Assembly: GCF_900172315.1 (NCBI RefSeq)
Contig: NZ_FWFV01000004.1
Location: 124,001 to 188,000 of the forward strand
DNA length: 64,000 nt
Direction of reading: 5' to 3'
Source: Palleronia marisminoris
GTDB taxonomy: Bacteria > Pseudomonadota > Alphaproteobacteria > Rhodobacterales > Rhodobacteraceae
The translations under genes and the position numbers were made by a program. This document shows, piece after piece, positions 48,429 to 61,521 of this stretch. Position 1 is the first letter of the stretch, and every line of letters starts with the position of its first letter. The notes below the pieces were generated by a model. The model did not search any database and had not been told where the DNA came from. It saw only the letters and a program-made list of their open reading frames with translations.

Positions 48429-49067
48429 ATGACCCGCATCCTTCCTGGCATCCTTGCCATGGCCACCATCGTGGTGGCTTCGAACATCCTCGTGCAGTTC
48501 GTGCTGCTCGACGGCCTCCTGACCTGGGGCGCCTTCACCTATCCCTTCGCCTTCCTCGTCACCGACGTGGTGAACCGCGTCCATGGCCCGCAGACCGCGC
48601 GCCGCGTGGTGCTCGCCGGCTTCGCGGTCGGCGTCGTCTGCTCGCTGATCGGCACGCAGATCACGCTGCAGGGCGACGGCTACACCTATCCGGCCGTGCC
48701 GCTGCGCGTCGCAGTCGCCTCGGGCGTTGCGTTCCTGACGGCGCAGCTTGCCGACATCTTCGTGTTCAACCGGGTGCGCGGGGGGGCGTGGTGGAATGCG
48801 CCGCTGGCCTCTTCGATCGTGGGATCCGTGATCGACGCGACGCTGTTCTTCACCATCGCCTTTGCCGCGTTCATCAGCTTCGGTGCCGCCGCCGACAGCC
48901 ACGTCTCCTGGGCGTGGGACGCCGCGCCGTTCCTGACCTTCGGGCCGGCGACGCCGCTTTGGGTCTCTCTCGCGGTTGCGGACTGGATGCTCAAGCTCGC
49001 CCTCGTTTTGATCGCCCTTGTGCCGTTCCGGCTGATCACGAAAAAACTCACACAATCTCTAGCATGA
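48429..49067 (+). CDS. Queuosine precursor transporter (YhhQ/VUT family)
   Basis: The 212-residue polytopic membrane protein with six helices belongs to the YhhQ/VUT-1 (COG1738) family, which imports preQ0/preQ1 for tRNA queuosine. Landmarks: ASNILVQFVLLDGLLTWGAFTYP, FLVTDVVNRVHGPQTARRVV, and AQLADIFVFNRVRGGAWWNAPLAS with the conserved Q-D-F pattern. Its translation start lies 6 bases after the preQ1-I riboswitch, matching the substrate. Confidence 0.92.
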   Translation: MTRILPGILAMATIVVASNILVQFVLLDGLLTWGAFTYPFAFLVTDVVNRVHGPQTARRVVLAGFAVGVVCSLIGTQITLQGDGYTYPAVPLRVAVASGVAFLTAQLADIFVFNRVRGGAWWNAPLASSIVGSVIDATLFFTIAFAAFISFGAAADSHVSWAWDAAPFLTFGPATPLWVSLAVADWMLKLALVLIALVPFRLITKKLTQSLA

Positions 49068-49124
49068 TTTTGTTTGACTGACGCCAAATCTGTGCCACCG
49101 TCCCTCTATCGGCAATCAACGAAA

Positions 49125-49251
49125 GGAGGTGGTCCAGTGTCTAGAATGATGCAGGAGTGTGAGGGCGGAACAGTCATGGGGGCCGACGTCCAAGGGCAGT
49201 CCTGAGGACGAAGAACCATGATTGGGTCGGACCCTAACCGGGCCCACCTCC
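49125..49251 (+). ncRNA. Candidate structured RNA with a sequestered full-length Shine-Dalgarno
   Basis: Closing stem: GGAGGTGG (49125-49132) pairs perfectly with CCACCTCC (49244-49251). Inside are a nine-pair stem with one G-U pair, CAGTCATGG (49171-49179) with CCATGATTG (49216-49224); a nested CGTCC/GGACG stem (49187-49191 with 49206-49210); and a small GGGT/ACCC hairpin (49224-49234), which shares base 49224. The 5' strand of the closing stem is a nearly complete copy of the anti-16S sequence (GAAAGGAGGTGGTCC). An intrinsic terminator follows at 49263. I do not recognise it as a known family. Confidence 0.6.
49137..49205 (+). CDS. Putative 22-aa leader peptide inside the structured RNA
   Basis: A GTG start lies 7 bases after the very strong Shine-Dalgarno (GGAGG at 49125-49129). 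It reads (V/M)SRMMQECEGGTVMGADV and ends QGQS before TGA. The ideal ribosome site argues for translation, but the peptide has no recognisable family and the frame could be incidental to the RNA fold. The start is buried next to the closing stem, so translation would depend on stem opening. Confidence 0.4.
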   Translation: MSRMMQECEGGTVMGADVQGQS

Positions 49252-49262
49252 GAAACATTCGA

Positions 49263-49297
49263 GGGACCGTCGTATTCCGGCGGTCCCTTTTCTTTTC
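49263..49297 (+). terminator. Intrinsic terminator
   Basis: GGGACCG (49263-49269) pairs with CGGTCCC (49281-49287) around an 11-base loop and is followed at once by TTTTCTTTT. This is the clearest rho-independent terminator in the window. It ends the transcript that carries the structured RNA and separates it from arfB. Confidence 0.85.
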
Positions 49298-49351: not shown

Positions 49352-49774
49352 ATGACATTGCGCGTGAACGACCGTATCCAGATCGAGGATTGGGAGCTGG
49401 TGGAACAGTTCGTCCAGTCCGGCGGCCCCGGCGGGCAGAACGTCAACAAGGTCGCCACTGCGGTCGAGCTGCGGTTCGAGGCCGAGCGTTCCCCGAACCT
49501 GCCGGCCCCGGTCAAGACGCGCCTGCGCCGGCTCGCCGGACGCCGCTGGACCCGCGAGGGCGCGCTTCTGATCAAGGTGGACGAGACCCGCCACCAGGCC
49601 CGCAACCGCGCGATCGCCCGCGACCGCCTGGTCGAGCTGATCCGTCAGGCCCTGGAGAAGCCGAAGCGCCGCGTGCCGACGAAGGTGTCGCTGAACCAGA
49701 AGCGCAAGCGCCGCGAGGCCAAGCGCCAGCGCGGCGAGGTCAAGTCCCTGCGCGGGAAGGTCGACCCCGACTGA
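49352..49774 (+). CDS. arfB: Alternative ribosome-rescue factor ArfB (YaeJ)
   Basis: The 140-residue peptidyl-tRNA hydrolase frees stalled ribosomes. The catalytic GGQ is in QSGGPGGQNVNKVATAVELRF (residues about 20-40). The C-terminal tail is strongly basic (KRKRREAKRQRGEVKSLRGK) and would enter the empty mRNA channel. The start is ATG 49352; the frame upstream to 49301 lacks support. No Shine-Dalgarno is evident, so initiation may be weak. Confidence 0.92.
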   Translation: MTLRVNDRIQIEDWELVEQFVQSGGPGGQNVNKVATAVELRFEAERSPNLPAPVKTRLRRLAGRRWTREGALLIKVDETRHQARNRAIARDRLVELIRQALEKPKRRVPTKVSLNQKRKRREAKRQRGEVKSLRGKVDPD

Positions 49775-55174: not shown

Positions 55175-55926
55175 GCGGTCATTTCGGCGAGTGGATGCAA
55201 GGCCGCATGGACCCCGACGGCACGCTGGCGCTGGTCACGATGACCTGCCCCCTGCCCCCGGTCGAGCCCTCGCCCGGTGCCGGACCGCTCCTGCCGCCCG
55301 AGCGGATCGCAGCCTTCTGCGCCGCCCTTGGCGTCGCCGATCCAAGGCTCGACATGGCCGCGCGGATGCCGATGGGCGGCGGGACCGGCGCCTCGACGGC
55401 GGCACTCTTGCTGATCGGGCGCGCGGCGGGCGTCCACGACCCGGCACGCCTCGCCACCGCCTGCATCGCCGCCGAGGGGGCGAGCGATCCGTTGATGCTG
55501 GACTGCCCCGACGCCGTGCTCTGGGCCCCGCGCGAGGGGCGTATTCTCGACCGTATCGCGCCGCCCCCAAGGGCCGAGATCGTCGGCGGCTTCCAAGGCC
55601 CTCCGTTGCCGACCGACCCCGCCGATATCGACTTTCCCGACATCGCGGACCTGCACCGCCTCTGGGCCACCTCCGGGCAACTCTCCCTCTGCGCCGGGAT
55701 CGCCAGCGAGTCGGGCCGCCGCACCACCGCGGCTCGCGGCCCCGAGGGTGACCCGACCCAGACGCTCGCTGCCGATCTGGGCGCGCTTGGCTGGGCACGG
55801 GCGCATACCGGGTCGGCCCGCGCGCTGATCTACGCGCCCGGCGCGGTGCCCCCGGGCGTCGAGGCAGCGCTGGCAGAGGCCGGGCTGACCGGCATCGTCC
55901 GGTTCCAGACCGGGGGCGCGGCATGA
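55171..55926 (+). CDS. GHMP-family kinase, probable L-threonine kinase (PduX-like)
   Basis: The 251-residue GHMP-type kinase has the phosphate-binding loop MPMGGGTGASTAALLL (PxGxGxGAST), and the N-terminal MSGHFGEWMQGRM typical of PduX-like proteins (GxxGEWxQG). PduX makes L-threonine-O-3-phosphate, the precursor that threonine-phosphate decarboxylase converts to aminopropanol phosphate. Both that decarboxylase and CbiB lie immediately downstream, which supports the call. ATGA overlaps on both sides. Confidence 0.8.
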   Translation: MSGHFGEWMQGRMDPDGTLALVTMTCPLPPVEPSPGAGPLLPPERIAAFCAALGVADPRLDMAARMPMGGGTGASTAALLLIGRAAGVHDPARLATACIAAEGASDPLMLDCPDAVLWAPREGRILDRIAPPPRAEIVGGFQGPPLPTDPADIDFPDIADLHRLWATSGQLSLCAGIASESGRRTTAARGPEGDPTQTLAADLGALGWARAHTGSARALIYAPGAVPPGVEAALAEAGLTGIVRFQTGGAA

Positions 55927-61224: not shown

Positions 61225-61265
61225 CGCTTGACTCCGGGCTTGGGTTGCGCCCATGTCTCGCCTGC

Positions 61266-61432
61266 GCTGGTGCCCGTTGCAACGGGTGAAAAGGGAATGG
61301 GTCAGAAACCCAGCCGCCCCCGCGACCGTGACCGGAGAGGTCGCCCGACGCCACTGGCCACCCGGCCGGGAAGGCGGGACGACCGCGGGCCAACGCCCAC
61401 ATCCGCAAGCCGGGAGACCTGCCAGCCGGAAC
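61266..61432 (+). promoter_or_regulatory. Cobalamin (adenosylcobalamin-type) riboswitch
   Basis: The plus strand contains the B12-box aptamer landmarks in order: CGGGTGAAAAGGGAA (about 61283-61297), the GTCAGAAACCC arm, the core GCCGCCCCCGCGACCGTG (61313-61330), and the closing AAGCCGGGAGACCTGCC (61407-61423). It precedes DUF1636-cobW-cobN by about 90 bases, in the correct orientation to shut them off when B12 is plentiful. The intervening GGGGC...GCCCC stem could be part of the expression platform. No matching aptamer is seen on the minus strand for cobO. Confidence 0.92.
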
Positions 61433-61521
61433 GATGAACGACGTGGACGGGGTGCGCCACGATCGGAGGACGGGGCAGTTGCGCCCCCATTCCGTGATGC
61501 GCCCCGCCCGGAAAGGTAGCA

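Follow-up and report, generated by a model that had tools for sequence, protein, structure and literature searches.

A diverged relative of the CC2171 RNA in Rhodobacteraceae with a probably translated short frame and a predicted helix that masks its Shine–Dalgarno sequence

Staphylococcal RNAIII encodes a functional peptide, has proven mRNA targets, and combines a short frame with C-rich anti-Shine–Dalgarno (anti-SD) segments able to close on the start region. The RNA described here has a similar arrangement; we claim no sequence relation and neither peptide function nor targets for it, and the precedent shows that such a layout can work. We know of no comparable upstream frame in RS0680a, SisA or suhB/MmgR (RF00519), which resemble it in carrying an anti-SD segment within a small structured RNA. 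That segment is described for the alphaproteobacterial sRNAs RS0680a (in part of PMC3927594) and SisA (in part of PMC12559287). In the Sinorhizobium meliloti DUF1127 leader ORF and in trpL-type leaders, translation of a short frame controls the fate of the RNA, according to passages of PMC12218461 and PMC10117765; these leaders act in cis on a downstream gene, whereas the RNA studied here has no conserved downstream gene.

The closest described system is the Rfam family RF01867, CC2171, which shares with our RNA the 5′ box GAAAGGAGGTGATCCAGTGTCT, the overall length, a match along the full length of the model, the terminator and a closing helix by which the 5′ region folds back on the pre-terminator segment. 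The Caulobacter sRNA set reportedly goes back to Landt 2008. An excerpt of PMC5596092 lists MH_s33, a homologue in Mesorhizobium, under RF01867 and gives RNA-seq coordinates for it. Our full-text search for CC2171 and RF01867, which covered sources other than the original Caulobacter paper, returned as relevant sources only this Mesorhizobium table and an Rfam table, and no function.

Kinship with CC2171 and distribution in the class

We analysed a 64-kb stretch of Palleronia marisminoris DNA (the window) in which an earlier note had described a compact transcript-like unit with a box complementary to 16S rRNA, a short frame and a terminator. The features lie where that note had placed them, including the pairing of GGAGGTGG with CCACCTCC, the nine-pair stem and the terminator with its T-run:

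48429-49067, gene for a Vut_1/YhhQ-type transporter, upstream neighbour (domain match)
49074-49079 (+), −35-like TTGACT, likely the RNA's own promoter (TTGAC conserved in relatives)
49097-49102 (+), weak −10-like ACCGTC, 17 bases after TTGACT
49113-49297 (+), full extent of the RNA, homologous to but diverged from Rfam RF01867 CC2171 (cmscan)
49121-49135 (+), extended Shine–Dalgarno (SD) or anti-16S box GAAAGGAGGTGGTCC, complement of the 16S tail in genome L212
49125-49132 (+), 5′ arm GGAGGTGG of the SD:anti-SD helix P1 (read directly and from the alignment)
49133-49156 (+), start-codon hairpin, arms at about 49133-49141 and 49148-49156 (alignment structure)
49137-49205 (+), small ORF with GTG start, 22 codons and TGA at 49203-49205 (read directly)
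49171-49224 (+), central hairpin P2, nine-pair stem, arms 49171-49179 and 49216-49224 (alignment structure)
49244-49251 (+), anti-SD copy CCACCTCC, 3′ arm of P1 (strict motif NC[AG][CT]CTCC in relatives)
49261-49297 (+), intrinsic terminator at 49261-49289, then T-run TTCTTTTC (terminator scan and paired changes)
49352-49774, RF-1-domain gene of ArfB size, downstream neighbour (domain match)

The note had found no known RNA family for this unit. An Rfam scan at gathering thresholds likewise reported none at the locus, but cmscan aligned 49113-49287 to the entire model of RF01867 CC2171 (positions 1–159 of 159). The match is a distant one, since its 39.9 bits (E = 2.1e-7) do not reach the gathering score of 75. 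The 5′ box of RF01867, GAAAGGAGGUGAUCCAGUGUCU, is present with one G-for-A difference, and the 3′ intrinsic terminator is present too; the middle and 3′ parts differ. When eight relatives were re-scanned with the RF01867 model, seven (four from the window's family and three from other orders) scored 33–42 bits and a Bosea copy alone passed, at 88.5 bits. The same model gave matches in 26 of 142 class genomes, five above the cut-off, and at 28 loci in all. Judged by sequence, the RNA is a diverged variant of CC2171, a known and apparently unexplained family. Of the other Rfam families tried and rejected, suhB/MmgR (RF00519) matched the 3′ part at 20.6 bits against a cut-off of 41, and the BjrC68 and hya matches fell far under their cut-offs.

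We next considered how widely the RNA occurs. A pattern joining the box to a start codon, one mismatch allowed, was found in 59 of 289 class genomes. Among 299 genomes drawn from the phylum it was found in 50; a hand count of the result rows places all 50 among the 86 class members and none among the 213 other genomes. Of at least 119 matching stretches in named genomes, the 80 loci listed were analysed and nearly all were labelled Alphaproteobacteria or its subgroups (Rhodobacterales, Hyphomicrobiales, Sphingomonadales, Acetobacteraceae and Caulobacterales); three were labelled 'Proteobacteria' and two were Gemmatimonadota metagenome-assembled genomes. In the two Gemmatimonadota-labelled contigs (L099 and L124) the 5′ box is accompanied by a start codon and a short frame, an occurrence that may reflect transfer, mis-binning or chance. 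Within the window's family, taken as Rhodobacteraceae from named loci with the same RNA type, a covariance model (R1) found exactly one copy each in 132 of 149 genomes and 131 of 148 genera; R1 was built from 36 family-type RNAs, the window's included, some of them from genomes later matched. Searches of plasmid records gave a single match, which covered just the 3′ end of the query. Outside the family, one genome (G047) has two copies (L035 and L054), which differ in type, CATTG in one case and CATGG in the other.

Two sets of family-type RNAs were compared. The first, of 41, consists of RNAs with sufficient flank that have GAG at codon 7 and TC at codon 2 and lack CAT at codon 3. The second, of 138, adds 70 loci, the box-bearing loci among L213–L242 and up to five single loci. 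Duplicates were dropped from both, and L034, L039, L044 and L045 were left out as duplicates.

A generic promoter scan reported no promoter at the locus. Counted from GGAGG, TTGAC stands at −51 to −54 in 36 of the 40 family-type RNAs compared, a conserved position that is compatible with, and likely reflects, a promoter of the RNA's own. The promoter spacer (about 49080-49097) is conserved as well (AAATCTGTG.CA here, CACAAAATCTGTG in many relatives) and could be a candidate site for a regulator. The terminator is unremarkable by itself, since the scan gave one such site against 0.6 expected by shuffling; its stem shows changes on both sides in nine of ten pairs among relatives.

The anti-16S box and the short frame

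The 16S 3′ end in a genome of the same genus (L212), recognised by sequence with no rRNA model behind it, reads TGGATCACCTCCTTTCT. The box is thus a 15-nucleotide complement with one G–U pair, which bears out the near-full anti-16S complement proposed in the note. The window genome's own 16S was not found by searches of this kind, one of which matched in one of four genomes. Exact GGAGGTGRTCC occurs once in the window. Box and start codon are present in 26 of the 28 loci found with the RF01867 model, which itself scores the box, and are absent from L051 and L055. A complement shortened to GAAAGGAGGTG occurs together with the start codon and an 18-codon frame in six loci (L245, L250, L283, L303, L305 and L307), and L021, L023 and L050 also have a shorter box with a start codon.

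We then asked what is conserved in the frame. In 289 class genomes, a pattern that fixed the box and TC but let the four bases following the box vary (AAAGGAGGTGRTCCNNNNTC) gave 48 matches, and all 48 had ATG, GTG or TTG at one fixed place and never CTG. Other start-codon counts are partly conditioned, because the patterns and scripts sought ATG, GTG or TTG; this free-triplet test is less so. With a script window of 10–13 nucleotides, each of the 138 family-type RNAs had a start codon 10–12 nucleotides 3′ of the G that opens GGAGG. An 18-codon frame was found in 125 of the 138, ending in TGA (64), TAG (47) or TAA (14), and nine of the ten RNAs in which the spacer between SD and start is shorter by 1–2 nucleotides retain 18 codons. 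The 22-codon GTG frame of the note is present in the window; its length is untypical, as codon 19 (49191-49193), the usual stop position, reads CAA and extends the frame to codon 22. Relatives of Rhizobiaceae/Phyllobacteriaceae type have frames of 22–25 codons. The frame is probably translated, judging from the constancy of its start and stop.

Selection on the peptide was sought by dN/dS with frame controls and gave no signal: over 124 distinct ORFs the ratio was 0.819 in frame and 0.784 and 0.728 in shifted frames. Glu7 is encoded by GAG in 121 of 121 ORFs and Thr12 by ACA in 110 of 112; because each keeps one codon, it is nucleotides rather than residues that are held there. Ser2, in contrast, is present in 116 of 124 with four synonymous codons, and Gly11 is written GGA (57) or GGG (53), variation that would fit selection on a few residues. 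Between orders, peptides have little more than Met-Ser in common and range from 14 to 35 residues. Apparently the start and stop of translation have been selected and the peptide has not. The translated short ORF expected of a dual-function sRNA is indicated here by comparative evidence.

Helices that close the start region

The RNA is predicted to fold at −79.6 kcal/mol (z = −3.8), and none of 200 shuffles was as stable. The note had staked its interpretation on conservation and compensatory change in related genomes. RNAalifold on the 41 family-type RNAs (alignment A1) gave 33 pairs, and at 16 of these both partners have changed in some sequence; 95.0% of cells were paired, against 36–53% with partners slid, and 0 of 500 shuffles were as high on any of five measures, counts that favour the structure because it was derived from the very alignment on which they were made. 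P2 has changes on both sides in some relatives at all six consensus pairs (87.4% of cells paired), and the usual stop codon position falls inside its span. In the start-codon hairpin 98.6% of cells are paired, three of seven pairs are invariant and none has changed on both sides.

The six main pairs of P1 are paired in 98.8% of cells across the 41 relatives with one-sided changes only, as expected if rRNA fixes the SD side. In 28 of the 41 RNAs the SD pairs at eight of eight positions with the RNA's own anti-SD copy, against 7.5% of shuffled regions. The strict anti-SD motif is present in 111 of 138 family-type RNAs and absent from 27. Where the eighth SD base is C, the opposite base is G in 7 of 15 RNAs, compared with 1 of 52 where it is A and 0 of 43 where it is G; overall, pairing at the eighth base was found in 54 of 111 RNAs against 43.4 expected, a value not reached in 5,000 permutations that ignored kinship. 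Other RNAs run contrary to this pattern, as A faces an unpairable C in 47 of 52 and C faces another C in 8 of 15. A duplex-energy test of closure was weak (40 of 132 family-type RNAs and 2 of 65 elsewhere). In a contiguous-helix test, devised after the duplex-energy test with other groupings and covering 132 of the 138 family-type RNAs, the SD paired with the pre-terminator segment within the top 5% of shuffles in 100 of 132. Comparison shows a predicted masking of the SD by the anti-SD copy in most family-type RNAs.

CC2171 closes differently: the 5′ arm of its closing helix is formed by codons 2–7, whereas in the window RNA it is the SD. Of the 18 RNAs that have CATTG at codons 3–4 (the CATTG type), 12 showed pairing of codons 2–7 with the pre-terminator segment within the top 5% of shuffles, and none showed such pairing of the SD; in the family type, codons 2–7 paired there in 7 of 132, the chance level. 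Of the CC2171 helix between codons 3–5 and the pre-terminator segment, the window offers only GAATG:CATTC, a pairing matched by 22 of 100 shuffles. Sphingomonadales-type RNAs (the CATGG group), which carry CATGGTTCAGC and GCTGACCATG and by eye form a bulged helix, passed the contiguous-helix test in only 1 of 11 cases with the codons and 3 of 11 with the SD; the corresponding counts were 0 and 3 of 12 in the AGT group, 0 and 0 of 8 in the 'CATother' group, and 3 and 0 of 16 in the 'rest' group. By eye, Bradyrhizobium RNAs have an anti-SD copy (GTCACCTC) within the frame itself. Since few RNAs beyond the family type mask the SD, SD masking appears as a variant of the family. These counts make closure of the start region onto the pre-terminator segment firm in two types and no more than a suggestion in the others.

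Proposed mechanism and rival explanations

We propose that the transcript is a free-standing small mRNA or sRNA in which ribosome loading competes with closure of the 5′ region onto the 3′ region, a reading to which we give about an even chance. The near-complete anti-16S box would load a ribosome on the 18-codon frame (22 codons in the window). With no ribosome bound, the SD would be held by the anti-SD copy just upstream of the terminator, and the start codon by its hairpin, leaving the RNA closed. A 30S subunit that took the SD would block P1, and the ribosome would pass P2 on its way to the stop, melting it and leaving the C-rich 3′ segment free. Initiation and P1 would be mutually exclusive because both use the SD. 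We infer that, in the cell, the supply of ribosomes sets which of the two states prevails, and ribosome-responsive behaviour, which the note had also suggested, is plausible. The least secure step is the output: the freed CCAYCUCC might pair with the SDs of other mRNAs, or the output might be the stability of the RNA. More tentatively, and with low confidence, the whole class may share a sensor of ribosome availability in which translation of a mini-ORF, indifferent to the peptide, decides closure and the freed 3′ segment or the lifetime of the RNA is the signal; the closing helices would then be clade-specific, formed by SD:anti-SD in the Rhodobacteraceae type and by codons 3–5 in the CC2171 type. 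The comparative data suggest that CC2171 be reread as a translated RNA, not a plain non-coding one, that is widespread in the class. If translation itself is the signal, the RNA would be equivalent to a leader peptide that stands on its own, and would give access to the way these bacteria sense ribosome supply.

Several other explanations take up parts of this evidence. The transcript could be a plain small-protein gene whose peptide is the product that matters and whose structure only tunes translation. Conserved start and stop codons and the synonymous variation at Ser2 and Gly11 are consistent with this, as is a possible relative, the highly translated SEP1 of S. meliloti. SEP1 is described in part of PMC10117765 as a 23-amino-acid peptide conserved in Rhizobiaceae, with the top translation efficiency among 54 candidate sORFs, a Western blot band and a single mass-spectrum match below the authors' threshold; its identity with the window frame is a guess made from the description. 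However, dN/dS is no lower than in shifted frames, the peptides diverge widely between orders in sequence and length, and Glu7 and Thr12 keep one codon each, and we regard this explanation as rather unlikely. That the RNA is instead a decoy or parking place for 30S subunits, gripping them through the 16S complement with translation incidental, would account for a box spanning the 16S tail visible in L212. We consider it improbable, since several lineages cut the complement to its short form yet keep the start codon and the 18-codon frame, and a conserved stop is needless for a decoy. A purely non-coding sRNA, in which the SD-like box and the anti-SD copy have a role in structure or in mRNA pairing alone, would fit the filing of RF01867 as an sRNA gene in Rfam and the sub-threshold suhB/MmgR match, but is quite improbable given a start codon that interchanges among ATG, GTG and TTG without CTG and three interchangeable stops at a constant distance.

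The note had also linked the RNA to arfB, which could make it a cis-acting attenuator or leader with the terminator as the regulated element. Among 25 loci of the same family, arfB lies in the downstream flank examined, on the same strand, in 22. The upstream transporter is at least as well linked, lying just upstream in 23, and arfB is more than 1.2 kb from the RNA in four of the 22 loci (L002, L003, L006 and L013). A tblastn search of 29 loci from other families (three of them duplicates) found neither gene, and in those of these loci for which neighbours were called, by heuristic means, the nearest ORFs formed a single common cluster, shared by two loci. Because neither neighbour accompanies the copies in other families, the RNA is a gene of its own, with no conserved regulated gene directly downstream; we ruled out an arfB leader on this synteny and hold it to be very improbable. 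The note's overall interpretation of a compact, structured transcript unit has therefore stood, whereas its link to arfB and the lack of a known family have not.

Two further features of the window were recorded in passing. ARAGORN called a 91-nucleotide tRNA-Pro with anticodon AGG at 55832-55922 (+), where the Rfam scan at gathering scores had no tRNA, and the call is probably a false positive. A cobalamin riboswitch lies at 61251-61440 (+), with 93.2 bits against a cut-off of 31.5.
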